Assembly (NCBI GenBank): GCA_027604185.1
Contig: JADGKB010000017.1
Span: 109,378 to 173,377, forward strand
Reading direction: 5' to 3'
DNA length: 64,000 nt
DNA from: Boothiomyces macroporosus
Lineage: Eukaryota > Chytridiomycota > Chytridiomycetes > Rhizophydiales > Terramycetaceae
Shown: in pieces, positions 1-62,897 of the stretch
Layout of the letters: each line of letters starts with the position of its first letter
Numbering within the stretch: position 1 is the stretch's first letter
Translations under genes and position numbers: made by a program
The notes under the pieces: generated by a model
What the model saw: the letters and a program-made list of their open reading frames with translations, nothing else
The model's database searches: none
Told to the model about the DNA's origin: nothing

Positions 1-3000
1 GGGATCTATCGTGAAGGCCATTGTAAAGAATTTCCAAGCGAGTTTGTATTCTCCTTCACTTTGCTTTGTGTAGGCGATGTTCACGTACGTTTCGGCATTA
101 GTAGGGTACATGTGCAGAACTCTGCAGTAGTCCCGTCTACTAAGTTCAAGCTCTTTCATATTAGCATACACGTTTCCTCTTCCTAAAATTGCCTCTTTGG
201 TAGAAGGCTCTAATTTCATCGACTCGGTAAATTCAACGCAACTTTCTTGTAACTTTCCAACTTTTTGGTATGCGAGACCCAGTAAGGATCTCAGTTTGGC
301 CTCCTTTGGGCTTATTTTGACTGCTTCGATAAAGTCACATAAGGCATTTTGATTATCGCCCAATTTCCAATACAGAATAGCCCTCTGTCGATATGCATTC
401 TACATGAAATGATTTAGTACCAAATTGTTATCGTTTAGAAGTAAAACTATACTGTAATCCTTGATTGCATTATGATGGTCACCTGAAGCTTCGAATGCCA
501 TAGCCCTATTGAAAAATGCAAAATAACTCGTCTGTATGTTAACTATATGCACCTTGTCGATTGTTGCGGCCTTGGTGTAATCCATTATAGCAATTCCAAA
601 TTGATTCAGCCTGCATTTGCTGTTACCTCGTAAAATATGTGCCCTAATACTGGTTGGCTCAATTTTCAAAGCTTCATCGCAATCAGCAATCGCCTTTTGG
701 TATTGCCCTTTACTTTCATAATATGCAGCCCTCGTAAGATATGCATCAAAGAATTTAGGATCCAGTTCAAGAGCATAGTTCAGATCCTGCTCTCCATCTT
801 CATTGCCTTGAGCAAACCTGCATATACCCCGATGGAAATATGCTTTAGAAAACTTGGGGATTAGGCCAATGCACTTTGAGAATTCCTCCTCCGCCAAGGA
901 CCAGTTTTTTAAATGTTCGTAACAAATACCTTTTTGGAGCGAAATTTGTGGATCATCCTTCCCTGCATCAGACACAGAAACTAGATCGTTTAGCGCACCT
1001 TGATAATCACCGTACTGGATCCTTGCTTTGGCTACAATTGATAACAGTACAGGGTCGTCGATATGCTTGAATCGTTTCTTCCGCTCGTCAAATTCATCAA
1101 TCACTTGTTTGTATTTCCTTTGGAAGGATAATATTAGTGCACGCTGAATAAGTGAAAAATCACCTGTATGAATGTCTGTGCTATGCCAGAATTCAAGTCA
1201 AACGCTGCATGGAAATCTTTAGTTGCCTCTGGCACCTTTCCCTGACTGAGTAGCATCCTTCCACGATACAAAAACAGCACATAATTACTTGGTCTGATAT
1301 GAATAGCACGGCTGTAGTCTTTTATAGCCAAATACGCATAGGATTGTACCATTTCTAATTTGTTTCCTCTGATGGCTCTTTTCGAATTATGGGTTGTTAA
1401 CGTCAGCAAACTTTCCTTGTAGATCTTCTCATACAGTTCTCCCCGGTTGATGTAACCCCTTAGGTTGCAAGGGTCTAACTTAATTGCGAATTACCTGCTG
1501 ATATGGCTAGATTCAGATTATGTTTCGCTTCAGCATAGGTACTAGAGTTTTTCATGTATAGAGCACCCAAGTTTAAGAACGCTTTTGCTTTTCGAGGATC
1601 AAGCTCAATAGCTTGAGTTAGTCCAAGCTTACCAGACATGTAATCTGCGATCGCCAAATTATCAAATCCCAGACGTTGATATAGCAATGCTCGATGGTAG
1701 AAAGCATCAGAATTAGTTTCATAGGGATTTAGTAATATCGAAACGCTTAGGTCTTGGATTGCCCATTGAGGGTTTTGCTCTCTTAAAAGACACCCTCTGT
1801 GAAAAAAGTATCTGAAGTTGTCTGGACTAATTCTAATAGCTTGCGTGAGATCCTAAGATCAGAAAAGTTTACTTCCATTGCATCATAATAGAAGGAAAGA
1901 GCAGCATACGATCTACCCCGAAACATGTAAGCATCTGCATCTTCTGGATCAATTAATATTAATTTGGTAAATTCGTTTATCGCGTCAGACCATAATTGAC
2001 GCTGAAATGAATACATTGCTAAATTTTGTATAGCTTGGTCATTGTTTGGATCCAGCATTCGAACTATTCTAAAATCTTCATTGGCAAATGTAGTTTCCTA
2101 AGTTAATATGGGATACGTGATCGATTTCGAAGAGACACGCTCGATTGTAGTAGGCATCAGCGCAGTCAGACTTTAATCTTATAACCGTCGAATAGTTTAT
2201 AATCGCGAGCTTGAACATTCCTAGATTACTTTAAAAATACCTATAGCTTGGTAAATTCGTGCCTTTGCCTGGAAAGCAGCTAGATGGATCTTGTTATTTT
2301 CGGTTATTGCATCTAGATCCCTGAGTGCGGATTCTGCATCGTTATATCTCAGGTATAACTGGTGTCTATGCCACAGACCATCAGAATTAAAGGGGTCTAT
2401 CATTAATTTGGTTTACCAAACTGAATGGCCAAGTCCAAATCCTCCATGGCTCTGATAAATTTTTCCATTCTGGAAAATATTACACCTCTCCTTCTGTGAT
2501 GTGCAGGAATGGGTACTTTACTTGCTTCAATTAATTGATTGATTTTCTCCAGCTCTTCTTCAAAATTAATTTCCTGAACGGGACTAGCAGCTCCATCTTC
2601 TTTTAGGATAGGAGTTCCTGTTGCGTCCAGAGGAGGACCTGCATATTAGATTCAAATACCAGGGTCATCAAAGGTAGGATATTTAATACGCTCCAATGGG
2701 GTGAGACCTAATTTTCTCCTTTTAATGTTGTGGACTACTTCATACAAAGTGGTAGAGTTTTGCTTTGTGTATCCATTAATGGCTAAACCACTTCGTATGG
2801 TGCCAGTGTGAATGGCTTCGACTGAATCTGGAATTAATTTATATTACCGGTTGCGCTTGGTTTATCTCTTTCTGCTGGTAGCCCTATTACTGGTCGCAAA
2901 GTCAAATTTAAATCCAGCTTGTTGGTAAGAGGATCCACGGTCTTTCTAGTGTACAGGTGAGGGTTCTTAATCATATCAATCGCTCTTCGTTGATTGGTGT

Positions 3001-6000
3001 AGTATGTTTTCGGACTAATTTCGTTGCTGCTTTGCGGTTTTGCAATTACCTCATTCTTTGGCTCCAATTTCTCAATCAGCTCATCAGCAGCAGCTGGAGG
3101 AGCCACATCCATAACTTCACTTTCCGGTTCTATCATCAACTTTTCAGGTTTAAGAGCATTAATAAGTGTTTTTTTCATTATATCTTTCTTTAAGTAACGC
3201 CAAAGTTGCTGTGCTTTGAGATTTGGCTTCTTTTCCTCATCTGGCTCTTCTTCTGTGATATATTCATCCTCCGTTTCAACATTTTCCTTTGGTAATTGGA
3301 AAGTCGCTGTTGACTTTCGTCTGTCTTTACTCTCTCTTGGAACTACTTTTCTTTTCTCGTATTCTTGCAATGCTTTGATCACATATCCATCCAACGGGTC
3401 ATTAGAGTTGCTGTAATTCAAAGACGAGATCTGCCCCAATGACGTACTGGACGTATGAACTGTGTAGGGGGTCTGCTCAATCTCATCTTTGTTGAGGGAT
3501 AAGAAGAAATCAGGGTGCTGTACAGCCAACTTTCCTTTTTTCAATCTACCTTTGGTAGCGGTATTTATGATAAAGTCTGGCAACGCCTTTTTTACAAATC
3601 CTGGTAGCTTATCCTTTACAAAATCTATGGTATCATTCAAAGTGACTTTGGTCAAGACTTTTCCAGTATCTGCGAGTCCAATATTTTTTGCCACTTTCAA
3701 TGCCAATTTACTTTGTTCAACTTCTGGTTTATGCTCTGGTTGCAATGAACCAATTACTGCAGTTCCTGCTCCACCAAGAATAATGGTGTTATCAACAGCA
3801 GCTCCTTTTACCTCTAATAATTCTGCTTCTTCCTCATCATCTTTTGGGATGGCGTTTGGTGTTTTAGGTGGGCTATTATCTGTGTCAGTTTGCCCTTCAC
3901 CCATTTCCTCTTGAACCTCTTTAGCTATTTCAGAGGCATCTTTTGTAAGTTCATTTTGCTTTTCGAAAAGCATCAGCATGTGCTTTAAATTATTTTTCTC
4001 TCTAATATTATTAAAAGTTACGCCAATTCATCAAGTCTTTGTTGATATCTAGATCGCTTCGTAGGAGGGTCCGGTTTTAGCGAATTAGTTATATCTTCTT
4101 GCGTTGCATACTTTGCAAAGATTAACGTCTTTTGAGGGATTTCCTTTCCATGTTTTCTCCGTGTAAATTTAGGTTTTGGCAATTTTGGAGGTTTGTTAAC
4201 AGCAGTTTTTTTCTGAATTGACTTTTGTACCATCTTTGGAATATCTTTGCCAGTAGATTCCCTTGTAGTTGTAGTTTCAGATGTTGATTCTCCAGTTTTA
4301 GGGCGTGAATGTGATTGTGCAGCTGACAAGCATCTGGAGCAGTTCGAGTCAGAAATAGGACAAGAGCAACTCCAAGTAACAGAATTTGACGGTGTATTAT
4401 CTACTGTAGTTCCAATATTGGAGGCAGATTTTACATCTCTTTTGATGACACCAGACTCCAAGTTTGATTTAAAGGAAATTCTCGCCGAGGTTGACAATCT
4501 TTCCGTTTTTGCAATATTTTGGCCATTTTCTTTGATGTTTATTCCTGAATCGACATCTGGCACTTCTATAGAAGGGCGAATTGCAATGGACACTAGCAAA
4601 TCATCCTGAATGTTTAATTCAGCGTGAGGTGTACTGGGTTTATCACCTGTCGGCATTTCATCTCCTTGGATCTCACCTTTAGTTTCGTCCTTTTTTGTGA
4701 AAACAGGAACATTCTTGAACTTTGACAAATCATAGTCGGATGTTGTCCGCTCAGTGTAAAGAGTTTTCTTTCTATTTTCTAAAATCGACGCAAAGTGAGT
4801 TACGATACTGTCAACATCGTCTATATTTTGGAAACTTCCAATATCAACAGATTCTTCAGACATTGGTTTCTCTTCTGTTACTTCCGTTTCTGCCTCTGGC
4901 TCCACACTCTCATTTTTTATGTAAACAGGTTCTAATTCTTCAGGGGTTTCTTCTCTCTTTGGAATTGTAATTGGATTTTCAATGGTAATGGGCTTTGATT
5001 CAACAAATTTTTGTGGTTCATAGTTTACTTTTTGCCCAACTAGCATAACAGATAAAAGATCCTGCTTTTCATGCTTTGTTGGGCTATTGATTTTAGATGA
5101 GTTTAGTCTACCCGTTGGTGCTTTGCTGAAGTCTGAATGTTTCGATTTTGTTTCTAGACGTTCCTCATCGCTGGTAAAGTCTGACGAATAACTCTTTTTT
5201 AAAACTTGAGAATCGATTAATACAGTCTTGGGAGTCTTTTTAGTGGATACAGATTGAGCTGGTGCAGGCTTTTGTTCAATTTCACTTTCAGGCTCGCTCT
5301 CTGTCGGCTCCTCTGTTTCTTCAATTATTTCTTCGTCTTCATACATTGATGAATTGAATAATGAATTTGGATCAAACGTGTTTCGTCTCCCGGGTAGTCT
5401 ATTTGGGTCCAACGTAGTCCGTCTCCTATTTGGACTATTCGGATTGAAACTTTGTGTATCAACGGTGCTTCGTCTTTTTGACATGCTACTTCTGCTTCCA
5501 GATGGATCAGCTGCCCTTCTGCGCGATCCTAATACCCCATTTGCATTATCCAAGGGATTTCTTCCAGAGCTTGCATCCGATATCCTCGCATTATCATTTA
5601 TACTCTTTCGTTTGTCCACAAAGCTATTGTCCTTTGATGAATTCGCACTTGATTTTCCATATTCCATGGTGTTTTCTCTAGTAAGAAACATGCTTCTCGG
5701 CGATTCTTGATTATCTTCCTCCCTTTCAGCATTTAATGCACCCCATGTTGTCCTGAAATTATATCTTTCGTACCTTCTACTCCGTGCCTTTTTTATATTA
5801 GCTAGGTTTAACGCTGACCCTTTTAGCGTAGCCTCCTTGGTACGTTTAGGAAAATCATCAGTCTCTTTATCTGGATGGTTACTAACTGACATGTTGACAT
5901 TAAATAGATCTTTTCCGTCGTCGCTTTCTTCTTCTGGATCCGCTATGACATGCATTCTTTCAGGAGGATCGTCTTGTTCCATACTCCTCCTCCGGGCTAA

Positions 6001-6366
6001 AAATATCAAATCTGTTTCAAGGGAGGCTTTTGAATTCCTGGTATTAAATAATCGAACCTTCTGATCTTTGTATTTATCGCTTGTATATCCAAATCATTTG
6101 AAGTGGGGGAAGTGACGGAATTTCTGAGTGAATTAAAGGTACCTTTCTGAAGAAGGAACAAACATTTGCGTCAATGAATTCGCTGAAATTGCCATTTTTA
6201 ACGGGGTGAAACCTTCTTCTGGTTTATCATTCAGATTCTCTGTACTTTCACGCGCTTCTTCTATTACAATCCCAGGAGCGGACTCGTCCACTTCCACCAA
6301 ATCTTCTCCCAGCTCTTCCTGTAATTTTTTGCGAACAATGTTTGTCAGATTACTCCTCTTTTTCAT
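1..6366 (-). CDS. Large tetratricopeptide-repeat protein, TTC6-like (3' end beyond window)
   Basis: The start is the ATG at 6366 (MKKRSNLT). The N-terminal ~1,100 residues are low-complexity, rich in S/E/K/R, with a series of near-repeats of the type RR-T-DPN near 5340-5480. From about 2640 leftwards to base 1 the protein is almost entirely TPR units (for example A-x3-Y-x3-A-x2-D-x3-A-I-x-I-x-P). Reading frames were joined across many 19-21 nt introns; resolved examples begin after 6139 (gtacctttaattcactcag), near 4019, 2851, 2644 and 1494. Each join restores a continuous TPR or linker frame. TPR arrays are protein-interaction scaffolds. Size and an N-terminal disordered part followed by many TPRs resemble animal TTC6, but the family name is a guess. 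The C-terminus lies outside the window. Confidence 0.75.
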
Positions 6367-10377: not shown

Positions 10378-10480
10378 ATAAATAATTTTTGTCTGTATTC
10401 TATGTGGTTTGGTGTGATTGTCACAATCTCCATAACCAGAATTTCCAAATGCGGCGATAAAACAGCTTTTACTTTTTGTA

Positions 10481-11448: not shown

Positions 11449-12120
11449 ATGGTCTTGGCGATACTATTAGCTTCCTTTACTCTAGCACAATCATTAAACA
11501 CTACCGTTAATCAACCACCACTTTCTACCGCTTGCCAAGCAGTGTTGCAAAAATACGCAAACGCAACTCTTGCTGGATGCACACTTCCACCACAAACTTC
11601 AGCAGCAAACTTGACATCCTTGAACGCAAACTCGTTGAATACGCTTACAAGCGCTCAAAACTTGGATGGTATTTGTGCTTCCACTTGCCAATCTTCAATC
11701 AAAGCAGCTGCAACTGATATTGGAAATGGGTGTGCCAATGACAAGATTGAAGGAATGTTTTCTTATTCGCTTGCGCCAGCAGCAGTTACAGCATTATTGG
11801 ATGTTGGGTGTTACAAAGACGCTGGGCAGTACTGCTTGATAAGCGAAGCAAGTATTCTTTCCAGTGCACTTGGCAACGGAACTGCAAGCACTGCTTTGCT
11901 CACTGATCAAAACTTGGTATGTACAAAGTGTATGATGAACCAGCTATTGATTTTGGACAAGGACATTACTGCTTTCCCTACCGATATTCAAAATGAATAC
12001 AAAACATTTGCCACCATGATTAGAAATACTTGTGCAACACAATACAAGTCATACTCTTCCGGCGCATTGTCTGCTTCAATTGGACTGGCTGGGTTAGTTT
12101 TGGCAAGTTTGCTCCTTTAA
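11449..12120 (+). CDS. Secreted ten-cysteine protein, probable GPI anchor (paralog 3 of 4)
   Basis: 223 residues, intronless; the shortest copy because the Ser/Thr-rich spacer is nearly absent. The signal peptide MVLAILLASFTLAQS leads directly into ACQAVLQKYAN, then GCTLPPQTSA, LDGICASTCQSS, DVGCYKDAGQYC, VCTKCMMNQ and the final Cys before YKSYSSGALSAS. The C-terminal hydrophobic tail GLAGLVLASLLL is again GPI-like. All ten cysteines are conserved, though the first domain half is more divergent. Head-to-tail orientation with the other three copies indicates tandem duplication. Confidence 0.8.
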   Translation: MVLAILLASFTLAQSLNTTVNQPPLSTACQAVLQKYANATLAGCTLPPQTSAANLTSLNANSLNTLTSAQNLDGICASTCQSSIKAAATDIGNGCANDKIEGMFSYSLAPAAVTALLDVGCYKDAGQYCLISEASILSSALGNGTASTALLTDQNLVCTKCMMNQLLILDKDITAFPTDIQNEYKTFATMIRNTCATQYKSYSSGALSASIGLAGLVLASLLL

Positions 12121-12157
12121 CTCAGTGGTTTTCGATGGTCTTTGATTGCCACTCGCT

Positions 12158-12165: not shown

Positions 12166-12187
12166 AAAGCCAAGCGAATAAAACTCG

Positions 12188-13927: not shown

Positions 13928-14576
13928 ATGTTGCATAAACTAGTTATCTTGGGAGATGGTGGGGTAGGAAAGACCGCCCTTACGATACAATTTTGTCGCT
14001 CGCAGTTTATTGGTAATTCTAATTGACAGTAGAGGTAAGCTTCAACTGACAAGTTTTATGATCCTACAATAGAAGATTCGTATCGCAAGCAAGTGGTAGT
14101 AGATAGGCAGCCTTGCATTCTTGATATACTGGACACTGCGGGTCAGGAGGAATTCGTTTCGTACTTTATATTTGACATAGGCTTCGGGATCAGTGGATAA
14201 AAGATGGAGAGGGATTTCTACTTGTATATTCTGTAACTTCAAGGAGATCATTTGACATGATTGAAGGCTTAAAACAACAAATTATGGATGTAAAGGAAAC
14301 CGAAAATGTACCAATAGTCATAGTTGGAAACAAATGCGACAAGAAAGAGAAAGAGGTTTCATATGCGGATGGAGTAGCATTGGCAGCAAAATTGTCAAAT
14401 AACAGTCATATTGGATTTGTGGAAACTTCGGCAAAGACAGCTTTCAATGTTGACTTGTAATTTGTTTTAACAGCAGGGCTTTTTATACACTGATCAGATC
14501 TATAAGGGGAAACGGTGTGTACATGAAGAAGCAGAAGAAGGAAAAGAAGGAAAAGACAAAGTGTTTAATCTTGTAA
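13928..14576 (+). CDS. RAS1: Ras-family small GTPase
   Basis: 189 residues after removal of four introns (14013-14032, 14035-14053, and one each after EEFVS and NVDL; 20, 19, 20, 20 nt). The P-loop is [10 protein letters not shown], the effector loop [12 protein letters not shown], switch [10 protein letters not shown] with the catalytic Gln kept, then NKCD and ETSAK. The tail is Lys-rich and ends CLIL, a CAAX box of the geranylgeranyl type. The length equals canonical Ras. The first two introns are separated by only two exonic bases. Gln at the 61-equivalent argues for Ras rather than Rap. It would act at the plasma membrane in growth signalling. Confidence 0.9.
14033..14034 (+). other. Apparent 2-nt microexon in the Ras gene
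   Basis: Between a 20-nt intron (14013-14032) and a 19-nt intron (14035-14053) only AG remains. It completes the Glu codon of FIEFYDPT, matching the usual F-V-E-x-Y-D-P-T spacing exactly. The alternative is a 17-nt intron ending at 14029 and a 5-nt exon, which would insert one extra residue. Confidence 0.6.
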
Positions 14577-16921: not shown

Positions 16922-17007
16922 TTTCAGAGATTCTCGTTTCGGAAAATTCAAATTTAGTGGAAGGCCGCTCGTAAATGCCATTTGCAAAACACATACGATG
17001 AATTTAT

Positions 17008-47246: not shown

Positions 47247-47396
47247 TTTCATCAATATATATTGAATATTTGCATTATAATCATGCTTTTTATTTTTCCG
47301 CGAAATGAATCGACGACGCATGATTCCGCAACGGATGAATATAGTTTGCATTGTTCCAGTTGCTATAAATTACCAAGCATTTAGTAGAGTGCAATC

Positions 47397-47702
47397 ATGG
47401 GCAAATACGGCTTTACATTACAAAAGACACCTCCTGGGTAATCCTTTTTCTAATCTAGAATCTGGCCTTTGCTGGGAGTAATTGGAGCAGGCAAGTCTAT
47501 ATAACGATTAGGTTTTGGAGGACTGGCATATTTCCTGGTGCACTCTGTCCAGAAGCCAGATATCGTATTTGACAGAAAGTGAGTAATGATTAATCAAAGG
47601 AATAATCCAACTCCGTGGGAATCAATTGCACAAAATCAAACTACAAAGATGTATGATCCTAACGGTCGGTTTGAATCAAAGTGGAGACGAATGTCTTTAT
47701 GA
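47397..47702 (+). CDS. NDUFA4/MLRQ-like respiratory-chain subunit (copy B)
   Basis: 80 residues, same length as copy A, with three 21-nt introns (47438-47458, 47491-47511, 47579-47599). The middle one begins GCAAGT and is absent from copy A, in the codon for the Gly of IGAG. Signature FDRKNNPTPWE and C-terminal MYDPNGRFESKW match copy A. The first intron sits in the same PPG context in both copies but in a different phase, and the last is shared. The gain or loss of the GC-AG intron therefore postdates the duplication or was lost in A. Confidence 0.85.
47491..47511 (+). other. 21-nt GC-AG intron
   Basis: The segment starts GCAAGTCTATATAACGATTA and ends with G. Removing it converts IGAGK + stop-prone frame into IGAGFGGLAYF, matching copy A (IGAGMGGMCYY). 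The GCAAGT donor is the usual form for GC-AG introns. Confidence 0.75.
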
Positions 47703-49033: not shown

Positions 49034-51796
49034 TTACTTTTGCTTTACTCTGTCAAACAACTTCAAGCCGAGGAAAGCAAGAATGTGCCATACAACGATT
49101 ATCTTGGTGATGTTTTGGAAACACAAATTGTATTCATTAAAGTTGTAAAAGTGATCTGCTTGCCCGTTCTTTTCTCTAAATGGAAGTGCTTGGATTTCTT
49201 TTATCCAGAAAGCTTCAATTGCCCACCTTGGTGCTGAAATATCCCAAATCCATTGAATGCTCGATGGATAACTAGTTTTAACATCCCAGAGGTCTGGAAC
49301 TACTCCGGAAAGTACTAATGCCCACAACAAAGCAACTCCAGTTCCATAAACAGCGAGTTTGGAATATGGAACTGCGGTTGATAAAGCATAACCCAAAACG
49401 AACGCATAGAAATACAATGCGATAACAACAGACAGGACGGATGCAAAGGACTGTTGATAAGGGAAGAACATGACCAAAGCAACTGAAAACATGATTGCAC
49501 CAATGATTACTCTTGGAATATCCACAATAACTTTGGCAATGTAGTATGGAATTGTAGACATTCCTGATGCAGCATCTCTCCAATATACGACCTTTTCATA
49601 TCCAAATGTATTTCCTGCTACACTAATTCCAGCAAAAAGACTGCCTAAAGAAATAAACATGCCAGCTTCTCTTGATATCAACTAATAAATACCTTATATG
49701 ATCAACTGTTCGTTGACAGTCATAATAGGTGTTCAAAGGCGCATAATAACATAAACCCTGTGGATTTGCTCCCAAAAAGGTAAACTTTTGGATGGCAACA
49801 GAAATAAATAGACCTAGATTAAATGGTGAATACCAGCAGAAAAATTCAAAGCCAAATCGACCAAAGTTGCATTAAGCGTGCGATAAGTTTGATGGTAGGC
49901 TCGCTTCATTAGAAACCAACCTTGCCAAATTACATTTCGTCGTTGTCTAATTGGATCCGGCCTTTGAATAATGATGTAAATCAAAGTTAGGCAAAATTCT
50001 GAAAACTCTAATACTACATCTTTGGTGTAAGAGTACACACTTCCAATAATGTCGGCAAGTGCAGCAGCAATATAGTTGGTGAATCCGTAATAATCGTGAG
50101 GCTTTCTTGCTGATTTGAAAGAGCCTTCTGCAAACAGGTGCGGTTTACTTTGTCTCAAGAATTCTTGTTTCGCAAGCTTTGCTTGTTCAATAGTCATCTT
50201 TGGTTGGTTGGCATACTTGAAATTAGATTGTTGTTCCCAATATTCAAACAGATCTGATGGCTGGAAAGCTGGATCGTATTGGGAAGCAACAAATCCACTT
50301 GCTACATCCATGAAAAAGTCGGAAGGAGATTCCTCTGGTGGACAGGTAAACCCAATAAAGTCAAACCATCTAATTGCATCTTCTCTAGGGCCCATATACA
50401 CTACTCTTCCTCCTTTTCCAAGCAATAAGAAATCATCGAATTGCTTGAAAGTTGCAGGAGACGGAGAGTGAATGACAGCAGCAACTGTTAGTCCCTGATG
50501 TTGAGCAATTTCCCTCAGGTTTTTACACACTTCAAACGCAGTAGAAGAATCCAATCCAGATGTTGGTTCATCCAAGAACAAAACAGAAGGTTCAGCAACA
50601 AGCTCCATTCCAATGTTCACACTATATTAGTCAACAGATTACCGTTTGCGCTGGCCTCCAGAAATACCTCTTTCAGCTTCATTACCGATAATTGAGTGAG
50701 CAACATGCTTCATCCCAAGGAAAGAAATGATTTCATTCACCTTTCGCTTTACAGTGGGATAATCCCAAGAAGCTGGCAGTCTCATTCTCGCAGAGTGCAT
50801 CAGAATGTCGCGCACAGTAAGTTCTCTAATCATAATATCTTCTTGTGGGACGTAACCGATTAATTTGCTGTAGTTGGACAACTCGTCTGGCTTTCCATTG
50901 ATATGGACAGTTCCAGTTGTTTTTGGGACCTTTCCTGTCAACAGAGTGACAAATGTTGTCTTACCAGCCCCTGAAATTAATCGACAATCACCTGAAGGAC
51001 CCATGATTGCACAAGTACGGCCAGAACGAAGAGTGCCAGTTACCCCCTTCATAATTTCAATTCCATTTGCTAATTTCAACCCCAAATTTTCAAACTCAAT
51101 ATCAAAAGTCCTAGTTAACTTTGACAATTCAGTTTTGGCACCAACATGGGACATGTCAATCCCAACCAAATCCAATTCCTGCTTTCTTTTGCGTTCTCTC
51201 ATATCTTCTGCGCGACCTTTCCATTTATACAGGAACCAAATAAATGCAGCAACTAAAAGTTAGGTTGATATTACCAACCGCAAAGACAAATACAACTAAA
51301 AACTTTGGTGCATCAGAACTACCTAATGGGCAGTTTGCCAAAAAGCAGTTTTTTGGGGTTACAGTGCCTACTGGACAGAATTTGCCAGCTGGGCAGTATT
51401 CAACAGTTGTTGTATCGTTGCTGCATGCAAATCCTGCGGGACAGTACACAGCTTCAATAGAATTTTCAGGACTAAATTAATATTACAATTACCAATAGAA
51501 TCCTGGTGTGCATTGAAACTTTTCAGTAGATCCAGGACAGAAATCTGTGTCAATTATATCTTACATCCTGCTGGACAGGTCCAGTAAGGTTGCTGTGTAT
51601 TTCCATTGATTGCAATTTGTGCTGAAGAGCAATATGGCAAACCAGTCTTGTTCAAGCCGGTTGGAACATTGCTAACGCTGCACTCTTTTTGAGCACGGAG
51701 ATTTGCAGCCCAATAGATTGGATCGTAGGCTCCAGGTGGTAGCTGCGAGCCTGATATTTGCGCATTCACCAATTGTGAAAGTAAATGTAATAGCAT
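49034..51796 (-). CDS. ABCG-type half transporter with secreted Cys-rich N-terminal domain
   Basis: 871 residues with seven introns (20, 21, 22, 21, 21, 20, 22 nt). A signal peptide (MLLHLLSQLVNAQ) leads into a Cys-rich ectodomain with C-P-x-G-x2-C modules (YCPAGFACSND, YCPAGKFCPVG), then a first helix (FLVVFVFAVVAAFIWFLYKW). The nucleotide-binding domain has GPSGAGKTT, signature ISGGQRKR and Walker B VLFLDEPTSGLDSS, and a six-helix domain with CQRTVDHIRxEAGMF follows. This layout matches the plant ABCG24/28 and protist ABCG group. The intron at 50971-50991 interrupts the P-loop and is 21 nt without a stop. It is probably a plasma-membrane lipid or xenobiotic exporter. Confidence 0.88.
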
Positions 51797-52985
<1,189 letters not shown>

Positions 52986-52987: not shown

Positions 52988-53685
52988 TTATTCGTTGATA
53001 GATTCAACCTTTGGTGCTCTTACTATTCCCAATTCTTTAATCACATTGTCCAGCTTTGATTCAAACATCTTTTCGTAATACACTTGCATCAAGAATTTCG
53101 AAGAACTCGCACATTGAATCGACCACGGTATATACACATCCATCAGCACCTTTCTCTGCTCTGGTTGAAGCCCTACTGGTCCAAACAATGCTGCAAGTCC
53201 ATTCATTGGTAATCCTGTTTGAAAATACTCGAAATATTTCAATCCAATTTCAGCTTCAACTGTGATTGGAAGATCAACCAGTGTATGCCAGAAATCATGA
53301 ATTTGTCTATATCTCGTCATAACATAAGCTAACTGAGGATCCCCAATGTATTTTATCTCTGACCTTGTATCTGGTGACACATCTTGGGTAGATAAAAAGT
53401 TGTGGTATGCGAACCCAAAAGTATCTTGAGGCAGCTGGGATAAATAATTTAAATCTATTGTTGAAGAGTTGATTATTGGCTTTTCCTTTAAAATCTGTCT
53501 TCCTTCTTTTGTCAATAGTAATCTGTTTCGCAGTTGATTTAATGCCCGCAACCCCGTCGTTTCGCCCAATGCAGCGACCATGTCTATATCAACGAATAGG
53601 TACCTCCTCTAGTAGGATCCATTAGCGCGGTAAAGGCAGATTTCACTGATATTGCAACTCGGCATGGAAGAGATGGTGTTGACAT
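52988..53685 (-). CDS. COQ4: COQ4, ubiquinone biosynthesis protein
   Basis: 225 residues with one 20-nt intron between codons of PTRG and DMVAALGETTG. The zinc-type motif HDFWH followed 11 residues later by Glu (HDxxH-x11-E) defines COQ4. Other blocks are YVMTRYRQIHDFWHTL, GLPM and CASSSKFLMQVYYEKMFE. It organises the coenzyme Q synthome on the matrix face of the mitochondrial inner membrane. The N-terminus is short (MSTPSLPCRVAISVKSAF) for a targeting peptide. Start codons of this gene and mtEF-G are 30 nt apart on opposite strands. Confidence 0.92.
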
Positions 53686-53715: not shown

Positions 53716-56163
53716 ATGAAGACTGTCTTGCAAAGAATTTCCAGACAGTTGAAATTCGTCAATATTAGGCGACTAATGTCCACTGAGCCGGTACCGTATG
53801 ACGCCAAGGATTTGGTAAATTAAAAAATTTACAGTTAGCACAGATTGGATCACCTTAGAAATATTGGTAATAGCAGTTAATCGCAGGTATCTCTGCCCAC
53901 ATTGACTCTGGCAAAACTACTGTACATTATGCTAATATAGTTGACTGAGAGAATTTTATATTATACGGGGAGAATTGATGACATTCATGAAGTCCGTGGT
54001 AAAGATAACGTTGGAGCAAAGATGGATTCAATGGAATTGGAAAGGGAAAAGGGAATTACAATTCAATCCGCCGCTACTTATTGCAAGTGGGGAGATACTG
54101 GTAAATATATGCTGATGATAGCAATTAATATCATTGACACTCCTGGGCACGTTGATTTTACGATTGAAGTTGAAAGAGCTTTAAGAGTATTGGATGGTGC
54201 AGTTCTTGTTTTATGCGCTGTTGGAGGTGTGCAGGTAAAACGAATCTAAAATAGTCTCAAACTATGACAGTGGATCGTCAAATGAAGCGTTATGGAGTGC
54301 CTAGAATTTGCTTCATCAACAAAATGGATCGGTATTTTCATTCTTAATCTAGTACTGGGGCTAATCCATGGAAAGTTATCGACCAACTTCGCACAAAGTT
54401 ATTTTTGAATGCTGCTGCGGTACAAGTCCCAATTGGCGCTGAAAATGAATTGCAAGGTGTGGTTGATATTATTAGAATGAAAGCGTATTACAATGAAGGA
54501 GAAAAGGGGTAGCTAAGAATTAATTCAGCGAAACTATTGTTACAAAAGAAGTACCAAAAGAGTTGGAAGAGTTTGTTCAAGAAAAGCGATCAGAACTGAT
54601 TGAACATTTGGCTAATGTTGATGAACAAATTGAAGAAATCTACTTGAACGAAGAAATTCCAACTGCTGAACAACTAGTTGATGCTGTAAGAAGATCCACC
54701 ATTGCTCTAAAGTTTGTGCCTGTGTTCATGGGCTCTGCTTATCACAACAAGTCAGTACAACCTATGCTTGATGGTGTAAATGATTATTTGCCTGCTCCCC
54801 ACCATGTTAACAACTACGCGTTGGACACTCAAAACAATGAGCAAGAAACTAGACTAACTTGCAAATCTAGTGATCCATTTGTTGCATTGGCTTTCAAGCT
54901 GGAAGAAAGCAGATTTGGACAGTTGACTTATCTGCGTATTTATCAAGGCACTTTGAACAAGGGTGACTGGATTGTCAATGTAAGAACCAATAAAAGAGTA
55001 AAGGTGCCACGATTAGTTCGCATGCACTCTGCTGATATGGAGGTAAACTAAATTTAATGTTAGGATGTTGACACTGTTGGGTCTGGTGAAATCTGCGCGC
55101 TATTTGGTGTAGAATGTGCATCAGGTGATACATTCTCTGCTGGCTCCCTTCAATACACTATGGTACCAAGTTTCTAACCAGACATCAATGTTTGTTCCAG
55201 ACCCTGTAATCTCTTTGGCATTAACTCCAAAATCAAAGGACACTACCAATTTCAGCAAAGCTTTAAACAGATTCCAAAGAGAAGATCCTACTTTCCGAGT
55301 ACACGTTGATGAAGAATCCAAGCAAAGCATTATTTCTGGTATGGGTGAACTGCACTTGGAAATTTACGTTGAAAGAATGAAGCGCGAATACAAAGTTGAG
55401 TGTACCACTGGTAAACCACAAGTTGCGTTCCGCGAGGCTATCACTAAGCGTGTTCCATTCGATTTCACTCACAAGAAACAATCTGGCGGTGCCGGCCAGT
55501 ACGGTAAAATCCAAGGTTTCTTTGAGCCTATCCCTGAAGAAGAAAGAAAAGAGGGAGTTACATTTGAATTTGTTAATGAAACTGTTGGTATGAATATTCC
55601 GCACAACTATATTCCAGCTATTGAAAAGGTAAATCAAGCTAATCAAAGGGATTCAAGGAAGCCATTGAAAAGGGAATGTTAATTGGGCACAAGGTTGAAC
55701 ATTTAAGGGCTATTTTAGTTGATGGTGCCTCCCATGCTGTCGATTCTAGTGAAATTGCATTTAAACTTGCTGCCATTGGTGCATTTAGAGATAGTAAGCT
55801 ACGTATTAACAAAGATTACCTCAAGGCCAATCCAATCATTTTAGAACCAATCATGGAAGTCACTATGACGGCACCTGCTGAGTTCCAAGGTCCTGTTATT
55901 GCTCTATTGAACAAGCGCAAGGGCACAATCGTAGATTCAGAAGTTGAAAACGACTATCTCAATGTTCAAGCTGAAGTGCCGCTAAACAACATGTTTGGAA
56001 CTTCAACTGATCTCCGATCCATCACTCAAGTACGATCCATAATTAACGATAGGGAAAAGGAGAATTTAGCATGACGTACAAGGAGCACATGAGAGTACTC
56101 CCTAACGTCCAAGAACAACTAATTAAAGAATATCAAGAAAAGCTCGCAGCAAAGAACAAATAA
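53716..56163 (+). CDS. MEF1: Mitochondrial elongation factor G 1
   Basis: 739 residues from twelve exons; eleven introns of 24, 20, 19, 21, 20, 21, 20, 21, 19, 20 and 23 nt. A presequence ([14 protein letters not shown]) is followed by G1 [31 protein letters not shown]3 DTPGHVDF, G4 NKMD, later domain IV block [16 protein letters not shown] and, after the final intron, [13 protein letters not shown] with C-terminal KNK. The 24-nt intron at 53815-53838 is the longest resolved. The intron at 54101-54121 is a multiple of three with no stop; retention adds seven residues before NIIDTPG. The factor drives ribosome translocation in mitochondria. Confidence 0.95.
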
Positions 56164-56410: not shown

Positions 56411-56982
56411 ATGGGAAATTATCAAAGTCAGTTGAACGATATTATGGCGCAGACCAACTGTAAATGAATATGTAATCAATAGTTACAGAGGATGAAATTA
56501 AGCGTCTCTACAAACGATTTGTTAAAATGGATACCGATCAGTCTGGTACGTTGGAGAAGAGCGAATTTCTTTCGCTCCCTCAAATTGCTAGCAATCCATT
56601 AGCACAGAGACTGTTGGCAGTATTTGATTTGGATGGCTCCGGCGATGTGGATTTTAAAGAGTTTCTGATTGGAATTAGCGCGTTCTCTGCAAAAGGCAAC
56701 AAGTTGGATAAACTCAAGTGTAATATGTAATTCATACTAGTCGCATTTCAAGTATATGATATTGATCGGGACGGATACGTTTCAAATGGAGAGCTTTTCC
56801 TGGTCTTGAAGATGATGGTTGGAAATAACTTGAAGGACACTCAACTTCAGCAAATTGTTGATAAAACTATATTGGAAGCAGATTTGGATGGCGACGGCAA
56901 AGTCTCTTTTGAGGAATTTACGCGCATGGTGGAGGGAACTGATATTGCAAGACAAATGGTTGTTGAAGATGAAAAGATTTAA
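56411..56982 (+). CDS. CNB1: Calcineurin regulatory subunit B
   Basis: 175 residues with two introns (23 and 21 nt). MGNYQSQL offers an N-myristoylation site. Four EF-hands are complete: [39 protein letters not shown] and [13 protein letters not shown], with [19 protein letters not shown] between hands 3 and 4, as in calcineurin B. It binds and activates the calcineurin A phosphatase in Ca2+ signalling. The catalytic subunit is not in the window. The 250 bases before it contain only a doubtful 42-residue frame. Confidence 0.95.
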
Positions 56983-57073: not shown

Positions 57074-60000
57074 ATGATGATTCAGAAAAGGGAAAACAGG
57101 AAGCGACAAAGCCGCTATTCAAAAGGATTCAAGAATTTAGTGAATGTCAAAACTACTCCAACAGAGGACTATAAACGACCTCACAGAAAACAGTTGATGG
57201 AAACTATTTTCAGGACTGATTTAAACAGGAGAATTAGAGAGACTGAAAAAACAATAGAGTTTGTTTCCGAGTTGCCTGAGTTGGAATATCTGAGTCAGCC
57301 TGGGGTAGATTTAGCGGTTGGGATTGATCTTCGAACCAGACGAAGGACTAATAATGCCTTGGTATCAGCTATTGATCAAACAACGCTCCCACACTCTGAC
57401 TTGTACATGATTCGCCAGCCGATACAGATACCACCAAATTATAAAAAAAGATTGGAGAGTCTGCACAAGATTGGAGAAAAGCTCAGTGAAGAGCGGGAGA
57501 AATACGAGAAGCAAAGGAAATTGATGGATGAAGCAATACTTAAATTGAAATTCGCACCGCAAGATGGTATGCCAAGCTAACACAGAAAAGAAACCACCAG
57601 AACCACAAGAAGAGAGTTTGGAAAGTGAGTCTGCTGAGGTGGTGGAGGATATTAAGAGTGTTGCCTCAGAATCTATTCCTGCAACACCCTCAAGTGTCAA
57701 AAACTTTTTTGAACGAAAATCAGTTTTGGAAGGTTCAGGACTTCCAAGCATCATTGGATCAACTGACAGCTTGAGTGGTGCAGATAAAATCACCCCTGCT
57801 TTATCTTTTATCTCGAACCTCCCCCGGAAATCAAGCGTTTTGCAGAACAGGTCGACTCGCAGTTCGCTGTTGGCTCTTCCCAGGAGAGAGAGCAAGTTAC
57901 AATCCCAAGTGAGCTCTACTGCAATGTCTTTTTCAAATGAAGAACAAAAAACAGATGGTGCTGACAGCTGGCAAGCTAGAAATGTTCCCTATATGCTTGC
58001 TATCTGGGGTAAGGCAGAAGGTATAGATGTGGAAAAGTACATTGGAAAAAGAAAGGCGTCTTTGAAAAAGCAGGATTCCAAACCCCATGTTGCCAGAAGT
58101 GATTCCAAACACTTTGGTGTTGGTAGCACATCATTTTGGAGGAAAGCAACATCACGAATAGATTCTGTGATGGAAAATTTACGCAGACAATCCAAGGTAG
58201 AGTTGGACGGTGGTGAAATAGTTGAAGGTAGTTTGCTAAAGGACGGAATTAATGCCACCATTTCTGAGGAGGTCCCTTCAAATAAGCGCACCCCAACGAC
58301 AATCTCTGAAGGGACGTATGAATTATTAAAGCGATTTTCAAGAGATACTGTTTCTGATGAGCCACAAATTGAAACAACTTCTGATGAAACAATGGTTAAG
58401 CGTGTTCTGACTGGATTTGGAGTAAAAGGGTTAACTGATCTAAATTCACATCAACCATTGGAAAGCGCTCATACAGAGAAGAGTGGCAGTAATGAAAAAA
58501 GGCGGTATAGCAGCCCTTTCAAAAATGTCACACCTGGAAACTGCTCCAAAGTGATTGGCGAGTTTATCACAGATGAAGGGGACTTGGTAATTCCAAATTC
58601 TAGAGAGGATTCATTCAAGCAATCTTTTGAATTTAAGGTTCCTGAACCACAATATAATGAAGAGTTCAAGTATCAAAAGAAGGAAAGCAAGCAGATAACT
58701 ATTGTTGATGAAAACCAAGTAGATGGAATTTACAATCAGATGGCTGAAAATTTGCGCAATCTATTCGGTAAAAATGTATCTATGCCGAAAAGGATCAAAA
58801 ATGACCCCAATGAAATATTTACCCCAATCAACATTGCCGAAAATAAAGACGAACCAGTGGTTTTCTATTCGGCAAAGAATGAAATCAATCTGAAAAAGTT
58901 CAACACAGCGCTAAAAAACAACATAATGTCGAATTGTTGCACTCCAGAAAACAAGCTTTTATGGAACAATTATTTGGATTCTTTTACCTCAAAGCTGTTT
59001 GAAATTCCACAAAAAAATTCAAATGCATGGAGCGAGTTACAAAAAGTAGCAGTGGCAGGTGTAAAACAAGAAACGGATAGAAACCTATTGGGGGAGGCGG
59101 TCTGTGTACTGATACAAATAGAGGGCGAGAGTGGTAACAATATTTTAATTCTAGCACTGGGACGATGGGACACGATTATTTTTAAACAATTTATCAACGA
59201 GTTGATGGACATTGGAACAAATGACCAAAAGCAAATTGTCAGTCTATATTTTGTAAAACAATCCAAAGTTGATAAACGAGTAGTTGATCAAATCTACCTT
59301 GGACTGGGTGATTTAAATCCCGAAAAAAGAAACCAAGCATTGAGTATCCTGGGCTCTTTAGATATTAAATTTGCCGAATACATGGTTGCAGCCTGTAAAA
59401 GAGATATTAGCCATTCAAATTGGAGAGTTAGATTAGATGTTATACACTTATTGTCTGCCTGGATGGCAAGATTAGCACCAGTTGACAATACCCCGCCCCC
59501 AAAAAGAGATCCAGATGCATTGGAAACTGATGATGATGCTACTGTGAAGGCATTATTTTACACTTTGGGGACTACAACACTTGAACAAGTAGAAGAAGCA
59601 AGCCATCCCGACCAACGGCCAAGTATTCCTCGAATTATTCAAGTGGATGATGAACCACCAGAAAAAGTAAATGTTGAAGCGAGTCCCGTCTTATTTGGAG
59701 AATGTGTTCAAATACTCTTGGGGTCCATGTGGGGTGATTGGTCCGAAGATGTGAGAGATGCTGCGAATGCGGCTTTAGGAAACCTGAATCAAGGAAAACC
59801 AGTCTATGATTGGATATTACTACAGCTAGAAAATCCCGACCCAGTAAAACGAGTTGATGCGCTAAAATCGTTAACCTCTATCGGAGTACTAATTAAATCC
59901 AACATCAAAACTTTTTTAAAGTGCTTTCGGGATCCATACGCATCAGTAAGAATTGCTGCTTGCAAAGTACAAAAATTCTAATTCAGGTTGCTTGTGTTCT

Positions 60001-60750
60001 AGAATCCCCTGAGAGAGAGATTGTCACTGAAATAATGGGATTGCTTGATGATCACGACTACAAAGTCAGAGCCTATGCTGTAAAAGGTACTCAATTCTAA
60101 TTTTAGCATTGGGATTAAGCAAATTTAAGGGTGCTAAAATCAGACAGTCGTTAAACTGGGCACTGCAGCATGATGATCATCCAGCAGTGCGAGCAGAAGC
60201 CATTCGAGCAGCATACAATTTGGGAATGATTCAAGACGATGCCACTATTAAAGATGGAGTTTTGACCCTTCTAGCTACAGACAAAGCTGAAAAAGTTCAA
60301 AAAGAAGCAGAGAGGGTTCTTGTTTTGTCAAACGTAATCTTTCCATCTATAAAAGGAGATGACAAAGACAAGTCTGAAGGTAGAGTAAAAGTAGATGGCT
60401 CCCCGGTCAGGCCATATCCACATATACTGGGCGACAAGAGCCAAGATGAAGTAGCAATATATCTAAGTCCATCACTCATCGGAGATCAAGAAATTAGTTC
60501 CGTTATAAACAAAGTAAGGCTGATGTCTACAAAAGAGTCAATGATGTCAAAAGTCGATGAGATTGGAGGTAAATTTAAACACGTCAAAGTGCAAGGTCTT
60601 GACTTGAAGTACGACTCAAAACATAGACCAGTGTTGTCTGAAGTTAGGGCAACCAGGACATCGATAAGGAAAAGAATGGAAACAAAGGGCGTGGTTCCGA
60701 ATAGTCATGGTATACCAGAAATGAAACCTAATGCTCCAATAAAAAGTTGA
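57074..60750 (+). CDS. HEAT-repeat protein, HEATR4-like
   Basis: 1205 residues with three introns (19, 20, 20 nt; the first reads GTATGCCAAGCTAACACAG). The N-terminus is basic and helical, then a long Ser-rich disordered part, and the C-terminal ~450 residues are HEAT/armadillo-type repeats (VRDAANAALGNL, VKRVDALKSLTSIG, YASVRIAACKVACVL, YKVRAYAVKALGLS, PAVRAEAIRAAYNLG). The arrangement, with HEATs at the end and the sequence DWILLQLENPDPVKRVDAL, resembles animal HEATR4, but this is from memory of the pattern only. It is a scaffold without enzymatic motifs. Start MMIQKREN; the second Met is equally possible. Confidence 0.65.
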
Positions 60751-60836
60751 AATATTTCGACTTATCTTTTAAATGGCGTTTCGCGTCATTGTTTGTAAAT
60801 GTCATGGATGCGATCGCATAAGTTCGACTTTTTGAT

Positions 60837-61530
60837 ATGAGCATTCCAATTTACGGTATTGACAAAGAATTGGGTAATTATTAATTAATCTCTGCTGAAA
60901 AAGCCGCCGAAAAATACGATCCAGCAAGAGAGGCTCAAGCCAGAGCATGGCTAGAAGAAGTAATGCTAGGTTTATACAGGTTATTGGGGAATCTTCAGGA
61001 AATGCTCCTTTTATTGACTATTATTTAAAGGATGGCGTAGTGCTCTGCAAGTAAGCTCAATCTGATATTCTAGAGCTGTTTTGAAGATCATGCCAAACGC
61101 CGGAATCCCAAAACCAAATGTATCCAAGATGCCTTTCAAGCAGATGGAGAACATCAACAATTTTTTGCAGGCTATGGACAAGTTGGGAGTGCCAAAGCAT
61201 GATCAGTTCCAAACCATTGATTTGTACGAAGGCAAGAATCCTGGAGCTGTTGTTGATGGGATTTTTGCATTGTAATTTTCTCTCATCATAGTGCCCGTCA
61301 TGCTCACAAAAAGGGATATACAAAAGTATTATTAGGACCAAAATTGTCCGACAAGCATGCAAGTTGAAAGCTAATTCTAGGAAGTTCAATTTACTGAAGA
61401 GCAAATCCAACAAGGGAAAACCGTTGTGCCATTGGCGATGAAAGGTTCGACTGGAGCAAACCAATCCGGAATGATATTCGGTGCTAGGCGTGAAGTAATT
61501 CCAAACGAAAGAGGAGGATTCCACTCTTAA
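60837..61530 (+). CDS. Transgelin/calponin-family actin-binding protein
   Basis: 195 residues from six exons. A calponin-homology domain reads YGIDKELAEKAAEKYDP, AWLEEVIG, KDGVVLCKAVLKIMPN, KMPFKQMENINNFLQA, TIDLYEGKNPGAVV. The C-terminal calponin-like repeat is MKGSTGANQSGM. Introns are 21, 20, 23, 20 and 22 nt. The first (60874-60894) ends in TG rather than AG if the conserved spacing between YG and KYD is kept; the alternative is a 30-nt intron ending AAAAAG, deleting three residues. The last (61359-61380) starts GCAAGT. It bundles actin filaments. Confidence 0.88.
60874..60894 (+). other. Possible GT-TG intron (21 nt)
   Basis: The segment begins GTAATTATTAATTAATC and ends TCTG; branch-like ATTAAT is in normal position. 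Acceptor TG rather than AG is required for YGIDKELAEKAAEKYD, which has the usual calponin-family spacing. Confidence 0.5.
61359..61380 (+). other. 22-nt GC-AG intron
   Basis: GCAAGTTGAAAGCTAATTCT followed by AG. Its removal gives SDKHEVQFTEEQ, the expected transgelin frame. No GT donor in the vicinity restores this frame. Confidence 0.7.
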
Positions 61531-61606
61531 AAATAAATCATGCTTGGCCTTACCAGAATTTATGAGTAATAATTACCAATTTTTCTTCCCTTTAAATTTC
61601 TCTAAA

Positions 61607-62897
61607 ATGCCTCCAAAAGCTGCAGCACAAGTAGTTCCAGCAGCGAATTTCGGAAGAGTCAAGGCTAATTTGAAGATGGGAATCGTTGGTCTTCCTAACG
61701 TCGGTTAGTCACTATGTAATTCTAGGAAAATCCAGCTTGTTCAACTTATTGACCTCCCAATCTGCTGCTGCTGAAAACTATCCTTTCTGCACAATTGTAT
61801 TTGATTAGCTAAATTAGGAACCAAATGAAGCCAGATGTCCAGTTCCTGATGAACGCTATGATTTCCTATGTGGGTAATTTTCAATTAATTTCAGAATTTG
61901 GAACCCACCATCCACCCAGCCAGCTTATCTCCATGTTACGGACATTGCTGGATTAATCAGAGGTGCATCAGAAGGTGCAGGTCTCGGAAATGCGTTCCTT
62001 TCACACATTCAAGCTGTTGACGGAATCTTCCATTGCGTTAGAGTTTTTGAAGACTCTGATATTGTTCATGTAGACGACTCTATTGATGCACTCAGAGACT
62101 TGGAAACCATTCAGTCTGAGCTGTGCAAAAAGGATTTGGAGTTTGTAAAGAAAGCCATTGCAGTGGAAGAATTGGCAGTTAAAAAATCTGGGGGACGATT
62201 CAAGCTCTCTCCAAAGTAATCATTCGCTAACAGTAGCTTTATCAGTGTGACTGAAAAATTGGTAAAGATGTTGGAAGAAAATCAACCAGTCCGAATGGGA
62301 GAATGGACTACCGTCGAAGTAGATTTGATCAATGAAAAAATGAGCTTACTGACCACCAAACCAGTTACATATTTGGCCAACATGTCTAAAGCTGATTTCA
62401 TTCGAAAAAAGAACAAGTGGCTGCCTAAAATTCACGCTTGGATTCAATCCCACGGTGGAGGTGTTCTTATTCCATTCTCTGTTCAATTTGAACAAGAATT
62501 GTGGAATTTGAGAGATGATCCTGCAGGAAAAGAAGCATTCTTGAAGGAAGCAAATGGTGCCGTTTCTGCTCTTCCAAAAATGATTACCACTGGTTACAAG
62601 GAATTGAACTTGATTTATTACTTTACTGCTGGTGAAAAGGAAGTTAGAGCTTGGACCGTCTACAATGGTGCTACTGCTCCAGAAGCTGCATCTGTGATCC
62701 ACTCTGACTTTGGAAAAGCCTTTATTAAAGCAGAAGTTGCCTCTTTTGCTGATTTCAAAGAATACAATGATGGCAGTAAAGGAATGGCTGCAGTCAAAGC
62801 TGCAGGAAAGTATAGAATCGAAGGGAAAACTTATGTAGTCAAAGATGGCGATATCATCTACTTCCAAATTGGTACTTTGAACGGAAAGAAAAAGTAA
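61607..62897 (+). CDS. OLA1: Obg-like ATPase 1 (YchF family)
   Basis: 401 residues with four introns (22, 21, 21, 21 nt). The first splits the P-loop: spliced it reads GIVGLPNVGKSSLFN. Then [49 protein letters not shown] and the G4-equivalent TYLANMS follow, and a TGS domain (LIYYFTAGEKEVRAWTV, KDGDIIYFQIG) ends the protein. OLA1 hydrolyses ATP in preference to GTP and binds ribosomes. The NMS variant of the G4 motif is usual for the family. All parts are complete. Confidence 0.95.

Follow-up and report, generated by a model that had tools for sequence, protein, structure and literature searches.

Intron-containing genes in the window

The window examined here is a stretch of 64,000 nucleotides (nt) from Boothiomyces macroporosus, a saprotroph kept in culture collections and placed in the Terramycetaceae (Rhizophydiales, Chytridiomycota). 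It comprises positions 109378-173377 of contig C17 of a genome of 216 contigs and 15.2 Mb, and the COQ4 protein read from it after removal of a single 20-nt intron matches a deposited B. macroporosus protein at 100% identity over 225 residues. Our subject is the introns of this DNA. Almost every intron predicted in coding sequence here is, very probably, a U2-type spliceosomal intron held to a length of 19-24 nt. The genes and regions of the window in which such introns were predicted are listed below; the support is the gene model unless stated otherwise.

1..6366, minus strand: TPR-repeat gene (by eye), 14 introns, 400-420, 1144-1163, 1475-1494, 1612-1632, 1853-1872, 2098-2116, 2221-2240, 2397-2416, 2639-2659, 2828-2847, 4002-4021, 5753-5773, 6038-6057 and 6124-6142
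6390-7005, plus strand: gene, intron 6795-6813
7011-7876, minus strand: gene, intron 7832-7852
8251-9052, plus strand: gene, introns 8456-8474, 8605-8624 and 8763-8781
12107..12125, plus strand: 19-nt intron of a secreted-repeat gene
13928..14576, plus strand: Ras gene, introns 14013-14032 and 14035-14053 (with a 2-nt exon between them), 14161-14180 and 14457-14476; gene model and KRas alignment
14602..18306, minus strand: TRP1-type gene (by eye; an upstream gene is probably fused to it in the model), introns 15729-15748 and 16745-16764
18545..21256, plus strand: OCRL-type inositol 5-phosphatase, introns 18735-18753, 19721-19740, 19960-19979, 20320-20339 and 20859-20880; model and PDB OCRL, with 19960-19979 recovered by spliced alignment
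22389..28841, minus strand: Brr2-type helicase (name from the earlier note on this DNA), introns 23505-23525, 24774-24794, 27446-27467 and 28417-28436
29021..31890, minus strand: puromycin-sensitive-type aminopeptidase, introns 29670-29689, 30794-30813, 30969-30989 and 31353-31371; model and PDB, the last three recovered by spliced alignment to part of a PDB chain
32163..35075: region with introns 32681-32701 (minus strand) and 35053-35075 (plus strand)
35893..36809, plus strand: eIF2 beta gene, introns 36106-36125, 36297-36316, 36463-36481 and 36625-36645; model, Pfam and PDB, with 36297-36316 and 36463-36481 recovered as introns
39814..40180, plus strand: gene, intron 39969-39987
40262..43606, minus strand: UPF2-type gene (name likewise from the earlier note), introns 40281-40301, 40351-40371, 40520-40541, 41715-41735, 41922-41941, 42008-42028, 42533-42553, 43010-43029 and 43482-43500
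43643..47458: region with introns 43733-43753 and 43882-43901 (minus strand) and 47002-47024, 47123-47143 and 47438-47458 (plus strand)
49034..52144, minus strand: ABC transporter gene (by eye), introns 49671-49692, 49814-49833, 50622-50642, 50971-50991, 51253-51274, 51472-51492 and 51545-51564
52438..52985, plus strand: cytidylyltransferase-type gene (by eye), intron 52565-52584
52988..53685, minus strand: COQ4, 20-nt intron 53584-53603; identity to the deposited protein and spliced alignment
53716..56163, plus strand: mitochondrial EF-G (mtEF-G), 12 introns, 53815-53838, 53867-53886, 53922-53940, 54101-54121, 54235-54254, 54332-54352, 54509-54528, 55043-55063, 55163-55181, 55629-55648, 55794-55814 and 56030-56052; model, the last 11 recovered by spliced alignment
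56411..56982, plus strand: calcineurin B, introns 56460-56482 and 56720-56740; model and PDB alignment, the second recovered by spliced alignment
57074..62897, plus strand: model joining two or three genes (by eye HEAT-repeat and calponin-type; OLA1 at about 61600-62897), introns 57567-57585, 59134-59154, 59967-59986, 60087-60106, 60960-60979, 61051-61073, 61272-61291, 61704-61725, 61797-61817, 61874-61894 and 62216-62236

The identities that the earlier note had proposed for the Ras, eIF2 beta, OCRL and mtEF-G genes were borne out by homology (Pfam for eIF2 beta, PDB chains for OCRL and eIF2 beta, KRas, and homologues of mtEF-G). An exon of the Brr2-type gene, searched with tblastn against plasmids, returned distant DEAD/DEAH helicase matches only. 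Scans of the window for Rfam families and for tRNA genes gave no matches.

A single length class

Predictions were made with a custom gene finder that combines codon usage with GT-AG ends and in which every length from 10 to 300 nt, or from 10 to 400 nt, was equally likely at the start. An earlier sample of 267 kilobases (kb) took in twenty 10-kb stretches and a 3-kb locus besides the window; the main survey covered 304 kb, or 2% of the genome, of which 240 kb lay outside the window. The first pass over the 267 kb, under the flat prior of 10-300 nt, placed 63 of 130 introns at 19-23 nt, and after learning 321 of 385 were 19-24 nt long. Over the 304 kb, the first pass under the flat prior of 10-400 nt gave 122 of 306 introns at 19-24 nt, compared with about 1.5% expected from an even spread; after learning, with lengths up to 400 nt allowed, the count was 383 of 427, and none was shorter than 19 nt. 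When the length prior was held flat throughout, 181 of 321 introns fell at 19-24 nt, four below 19 nt and 122 above 40 nt. The first pass over the reverse of the same sequences, a small control of 30 gene calls and 2,753 codons, put none of its 23 introns in this class. This control degenerates in later rounds of expectation-maximization (145 of 2438 introns at 19-24 nt, with no peak), and its first pass alone was used.

The first gene model overlooked stop-free introns with a length divisible by three; two in-frame 21-nt introns of mtEF-G are absent from it and were recovered by homology and by the later model. This second model, which also permits very short or zero-length exons, assigned 389 of the 412 introns in the 304 kb to 19-24 nt, 171 of them to exactly 20 nt. 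Within the window the count was 94 of 99 (15 introns of 19 nt, 37 of 20, 30 of 21, 6 of 22, 5 of 23 and 1 of 24), which agrees with the earlier note's figure of about 90 window introns in this range; the statement that every one of them lies there has to be relaxed to nearly every one; five window calls fall outside. Beyond the window the same class took up 295 of 313 predicted introns, as well as 51 of 52 at nine further loci carrying small nuclear RNAs (snRNAs) and splicing factors. The proposal that ultrashort introns prevail genome-wide in a fungal-type organism thus holds as far as sequence can show, the organism being a chytrid. Introns were predicted in 132 of 191 genes, with a density of 1.28 per kb of sampled sequence, and their number in the whole genome extrapolates to about 19,450.

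Agreement with homologues

Profiles of homologues were also aligned directly to the genomic DNA. Every intron carried the same fixed cost, whatever its length within the permitted 5-1000 nt; donors could be GC as well as GT, and the AG was imposed. For mtEF-G, 13 homologues from other fungi yielded 11 introns, all of them 19-23 nt long, with 694 codons matched and one deleted; all 11 donors are GT, though GC was permitted. The COQ4 alignment contains a single intron, of 20 nt. Six more genes were guided by single PDB chains or parts of chains, and here 12 of 15 introns measured 19-22 nt. Among these genes, the OLA1 introns 61704-61725, 61797-61817 and 61874-61894 were recovered, and the one starting at 62216 was given a 30-nt instead of a 21-nt end. 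The 21-nt intron 36625-36645 of eIF2 beta appears in the alignment as seven inserted codons at exactly the same place.

Deposited proteins may bear traces of such introns. The mtEF-G deposited for the sister strain Boothiomyces sp. JEL0866 (P0105) carries seven additional residues precisely where B. macroporosus has the 21-nt intron 54101-54121. It is also short of precisely the 21 residues that run from the junction of intron 53815-53838 to that of intron 53922-53940, as if annotation had bridged three short introns with a single long one. These differences are most naturally explained if JEL0866 has ultrashort introns at the same places and annotation missed them. Likewise, the deposited METTL2-type protein of B. 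macroporosus (P0226) is shortened and covers 66% of our gene model, as missed ultrashort introns would give. Standard annotation thus appears to harm gene models here, in that the JEL0866 mtEF-G keeps one intron as protein and is left without the exons between two others.

Intron anatomy and splicing machinery

The donor is GTA in about nine-tenths of the introns, the commonest form being GTAATT (52 of 382); at position +5 a G is present in only 58 of 382. A rise of T-A-A near the 3′ end was already visible in position tables compiled ahead of branch modelling. The branch model, seeded with a TRAY-type motif and with offsets confined to 3-9 nt, settled on YTRAY, with weights of 0.47 and 0.41 for 5 and 6 nt from the intron end. 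The best offset was 5 or 6 nt in 342 of 389 introns, and the branch A lies at position 14 or 15 from the donor in 339 of 389. A branch motif is therefore present, as had been proposed in the form of a TAAT/TAAC box; the exact TAAT/TAAC follows the donor in only 217 of 321 introns, and YTRAY is the better description. The A+T content of the introns is 71%. AG precedes the donor in the exon in 102 of 382 cases, compared with 6.45% of coding dinucleotides. Introns with a length that is a multiple of three contain an in-frame stop in 61 of 91 cases, a count inflated because those with a stop are easier to find.

The genome was searched for the snRNAs U1, U2, U5 and U6. U1 starts with AUACUUACCUG, two copies of U2 carry GUGUAGUAUCUG, and U6 has ACAGAGA, so that the pairing elements are canonical; the weak +5 position is thus unaccompanied by a matching change in U1 or U6. 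Slu7, Prp18, SF1 and Isy1 gave matches above their family cut-offs, and U2AF-large was matched with an E value of 1e-67. We considered that the shortness might be tied to the loss of step-2 or 3′ splice-site factors, and rejected this, as Slu7, Prp18, U2AF-large and SF1 were all matched. The gene models of all five factors contain short introns themselves, with one doubtful call of 46 nt in Isy1. The first 31 residues of the Isy1 model, counted from a putative start, lie outside all eight PDB Isy1 matches. Near the start of this gene, two introns nearly abut (L063:1225-1330).

Abutting intron arrays

Abutting arrays of introns and the fixed position of the branch are additions to what the earlier note described. 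For the METTL2-type gene, 13 homologues align best when a stretch of 57 nt is removed, which divides exactly into three abutting 19-nt introns; a PDB alignment of the protein starts at residue 50, downstream of the array, and is hence silent on it. A whole-genome pattern for two abutting units (TAAYNNAGGTAN{8,11}TAAYN{1,3}AG) gave 55 matches versus 6 for the reversed pattern, and a triple-unit pattern gave 6 versus 0. Under equal constraints there were 26 distinct matches at a spacing of 0 and 6, 7, 12, 3, 8 and 6 at spacings of 1-6 nt, where the reversed control gave 14 for the six spacings together.

From the 55 matches we drew 26 loci, the most striking first rather than a random sample. 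At 16 of these loci the array lay within a predicted gene (18 arrays), and three more came from the 304-kb survey, making 21 arrays of two to five units; the first unit of the L054 array, of 110 nt, is doubtful. L038 has five consecutive units, the last three nearly alike, and L037 has three 19-nt units, two of them identical. In diverged arrays, such as those of L007, L039, L046 and L061, the donor, the branch motif and the AG are retained in every unit. Where units meet, AG|GT is juxtaposed and the exon between them has zero nucleotides.

Two points temper the significance of the arrays. First, 10 of the 26 picked loci had no array in a predicted gene. Second, abutting pairs extrapolate to about 258 in the genome, with about 30 expected under random placement and about 123 when the AG flank preference is allowed for; much of the adjacency could come from intron density together with this preference. 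Runs of at least three units are a different matter: about one is expected in the genome and eight were collected (L007, L037, L038, L039, L046, L048, L049 and L061), so that intron density accounts for part of the adjacency but not for the long runs. Nor do the arrays appear to be mainly recent duplications. The mean likeness of adjacent units is 0.58, compared with 0.54 for random introns, and only 4 of 33 adjacent pairs exceed the 99th percentile of random intron pairs; that explanation was rejected.

Some related arrangements were seen beside the arrays. At L013:9063-9155, four introns are separated by three ATG triplets, and at several C103 sites introns are separated by a repeated ACC triplet, as if each duplication had copied an intron along with a codon. 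On four contigs an identical pattern match is found at two places about 19-48 kb apart (C20:66653/111720, C65:7729/26559, C18:83410/131020 and C36:46891/89075), which points to large direct duplications or to haplotypes left unmerged by the assembly.

How might a length limit arise?

We propose that splicing here would proceed by intron definition, hardly any free RNA being left to separate donor, U2-branch helix and acceptor. The donor and the branch helix would nearly touch, leaving no space for a polypyrimidine tract. The lower bound on length might then be set by packing within the spliceosome, and the upper bound by the distance over which the sites can pair. Under such an upper limit, longer interruptions would persist mainly as head-to-tail arrays of complete units, each excised singly with an exon of zero nucleotides between neighbors, and tandem duplication of single units might contribute to the growth of the arrays. 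There are arrays of 38-101 nt, whereas no lone intron of that length is backed by homology, which argues that the units are spliced singly and that the limit lies at about 24 nt. In the strongest form of this proposal, the introns are quantised: a hard ruler fixes the branch A at 14-15 and the total at 19-24 nt, anything above 24 nt persists only as separately spliced complete units, and duplication of a unit is nearly neutral, so that intron gain is visible as an ongoing process. We regard the case for and against this form as evenly balanced.

A possible, if less likely, course is that the first donor of an array is joined directly to its last acceptor, so that the whole array leaves in one step; the spliceosome would then accept introns of 40-100 nt, and the inner units would be leftovers. 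The one-step and unit-wise routes yield identical mRNA, and homology cannot separate them; moreover, in L037 and L038 near-identical, recently duplicated units would have left the inner sites without time to decay. However, the diverged arrays hold all of their sites in every unit, and although they were partly found by a pattern that requires those sites, L007 and L009 were found without it. The small share of unusually similar neighbors (the 4 of 33 pairs above) also speaks against removal in one step, as do the long candidates considered next, of which two are arrays and the others are without support from homologues.

Longer predicted introns

An unlikely alternative to our main reading is that an additional class of ordinary length, for instance in untranslated regions (UTRs) or fast-evolving genes, was missed or under-rated by a coding survey of 2% of the genome. 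Several points weigh against our main reading, and those on UTRs, on long predictions and on the cost of forbidding them speak for this alternative. All introns reported here are predictions from DNA, the survey was driven by coding sequence, and UTR introns are invisible to the methods; the gene finder was limited to GT-AG introns, and GC donors were admitted only in the spliced alignments. Predictions longer than 24 nt number 23 of 412, and they were not each disproved. The penalty for forbidding all introns above 24 nt reached 16.4 nats in L019 and 13.8 nats in L026, and was higher where several long introns occurred together. Three of the 15 introns from single-chain alignments are of another size (Ras, 27 nt; OLA1, 30 nt; aminopeptidase, 54 nt), and such alignments failed to recover the second Ras intron and OCRL 19721-19740. 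As for the machinery, the U1 match of 68.8 bits is slightly below the Rfam cut-off of 69.5, the U5 search of the genome gave no match, and U2AF-large reached 230.7 bits in a six-frame match, compared with a whole-protein cut-off of 310.3, in a search in which the control also matched in 2 of 14 genomes.

In our judgment, the three alignment introns of other sizes can be explained. For Ras, the single-chain alignment puts a 27-nt intron and four inserted codons in place of the gene model's introns of 20 and 19 nt around a 2-nt exon, and the product of the model aligns to KRas without gaps over residues 3-127. The OLA1 call equals the model's 21 nt plus three in-frame codons, and the aminopeptidase call is an open in-frame stretch that is kept in the gene-model protein. 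OCRL 19721-19740 falls at the margin of the segment that was aligned, where it is read through.

We also considered whether the longer calls form a second length class, and rejected this on three grounds. First, for none of the 44 longer calls in the first model did the gain, measured by forbidding that call's length, exceed 5.4 nats; the median was 8.1 nats for 93 short window introns with the donor masked, a test that is not quite identical. Second, the best single long call, of 103 nt in L015, appears by eye to join two unrelated genes. Third, the two calls that follow it are made up entirely of short units (57 = 19+19+19 and 43 = 21+22), every unit having a donor, a branch motif and an AG. 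Apart from these two arrays, the other 11 of 13 long candidates whose sequence was inspected had no homology support and were not disproved, and no independent support was found for the five window calls above 24 nt (55, 91, 109, 156 and 158 nt). Several long calls link tandem paralogues or unrelated neighbors, as judged by eye. One such region of the window, 9583-13138, contains tandem paralogues with repeated cysteine motifs (the single stretch tested had no Pfam match), which the models tend to fuse through doubtful introns of 85-142 nt. The earlier note had named conserved introns of ordinary length elsewhere in the genome as a finding that would overturn its reading; we sought them in the 240 kb outside the window and none was shown, the sole long gap with homologues being the 57 nt of the METTL2-type gene. 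Beyond that array and the three explained cases, the conserved genes aligned to homologues needed no intron of ordinary length.

It is very improbable that the segments stay in the mRNA and are bypassed in translation, or are removed by a non-spliceosomal route, given the U2-type branch motif, the GT ends despite the GC option, the intact U1, U2 and U6 elements and the matches to spliceosomal proteins. Very short introns in the annotation of Tetrahymena were judged probable artefacts (PMC5014332, in the excerpt consulted), but here an origin of the segments in sequencing frameshifts or coding indels turned into false introns is barely credible in view of the sharp 19-24 nt class, the near-fixed branch motif, the first-pass control without such a class, the fit to homologues and the in-frame stops in 61 of the 91 introns with a length divisible by three.

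Comparison with known systems

The comparisons that follow draw on excerpts of the cited sources. Uniform ultrashort spliceosomal introns are a known kind. In Stentor coeruleus, they are 15-16 nt long with a 5-nt tail after the branch A (PMC9505925), and the likeness extends to the commonest start (GUAAUU there, GTAATT here), to the tail (5-6 nt here) and to the conserved recognition elements of U2 and U6. The N-terminus of Isy1 is reported to be non-conserved in Stentor (PMC9505925); that the first 31 residues of the model are unmatched here is a lead only. There are also differences. The branch A lies at 10-11 in Stentor rather than at 14-15; Slu7 and Prp18 are listed as not found there, whereas both exceed their family cut-offs in B. 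macroporosus; 18% of Stentor genes have introns, compared with 132 of 191 predicted genes here; and the excerpted Stentor text mentions no abutting arrays (PMC9505925).

Mikrocytids have 16-17 nt introns and a reduced spliceosome, the parasite Mikrocytos mackini having 224 introns and 17-19 identified spliceosomal proteins (PMC10245619). They share with B. macroporosus a narrow ultrashort class with conserved sequence, and differ from it in that about 19,450 introns are extrapolated here and all five tested factors were matched. The introns of chlorarachniophyte nucleomorphs, of 18-21 nt, are nearest in length, but the nucleomorph is a relic algal nucleus and not a fungal one (PMC10245619). 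Introns of about 25 nt occur in Paramecium (PMC5014332), and Trichomonas has 24 introns of 23-25 nt (PMC12316389). Fungal introns generally are of the U2 type, as here; chytrids are intron-rich, the introns of Cryptococcus, with a mean of 63 bp, are called relatively short, and the excerpted text mentions no 20-nt class (PMC8476143).

The arrays resemble two other arrangements in part. The ratchet points of recursive splicing in Drosophila share the AG|GT juxtaposition and the apparent zero-nucleotide exon, but they lie within long introns and need a cryptic exon, whereas the units here are complete at about 20 nt (PMC8605326). Fungal stwintrons are also complex interruptions removed by consecutive reactions; they are nested, one intron splitting a site of another (PMC7138796), whereas in the 21 arrays the units abut and keep their own elements, though nested introns as such were not searched for.

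Searches of the open-licence literature yielded no report of 20-nt introns in such a fungus, nor of abutting intron arrays, although reports elsewhere, including the one describing this genome, are possible. What appears to be new is the occurrence of this known kind in a chytrid fungus with five factors matched, together with the abutting arrays. That all five tested factors were matched beside a near-exclusive 20-nt class suggests that extreme shortness need not accompany a stripped spliceosome or an absence of Slu7 and Prp18. Provided that it can be grown in culture, the fungus could offer a system for asking what is the smallest substrate of a full spliceosome, and with the abutting arrays intron gain through tandem duplication could be tested directly.

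Other observations

Two head-to-head inverted gene pairs were seen. In the window, intronless genes at 47894-48196 (minus strand) and 48688-48990 (plus strand) encode 100-residue cysteine-rich proteins that are one residue apart. Beside the U6 gene, a further pair, apparent copies of one another as judged by eye, lies at L001:2-496 (minus strand) and 913-1425 (plus strand).

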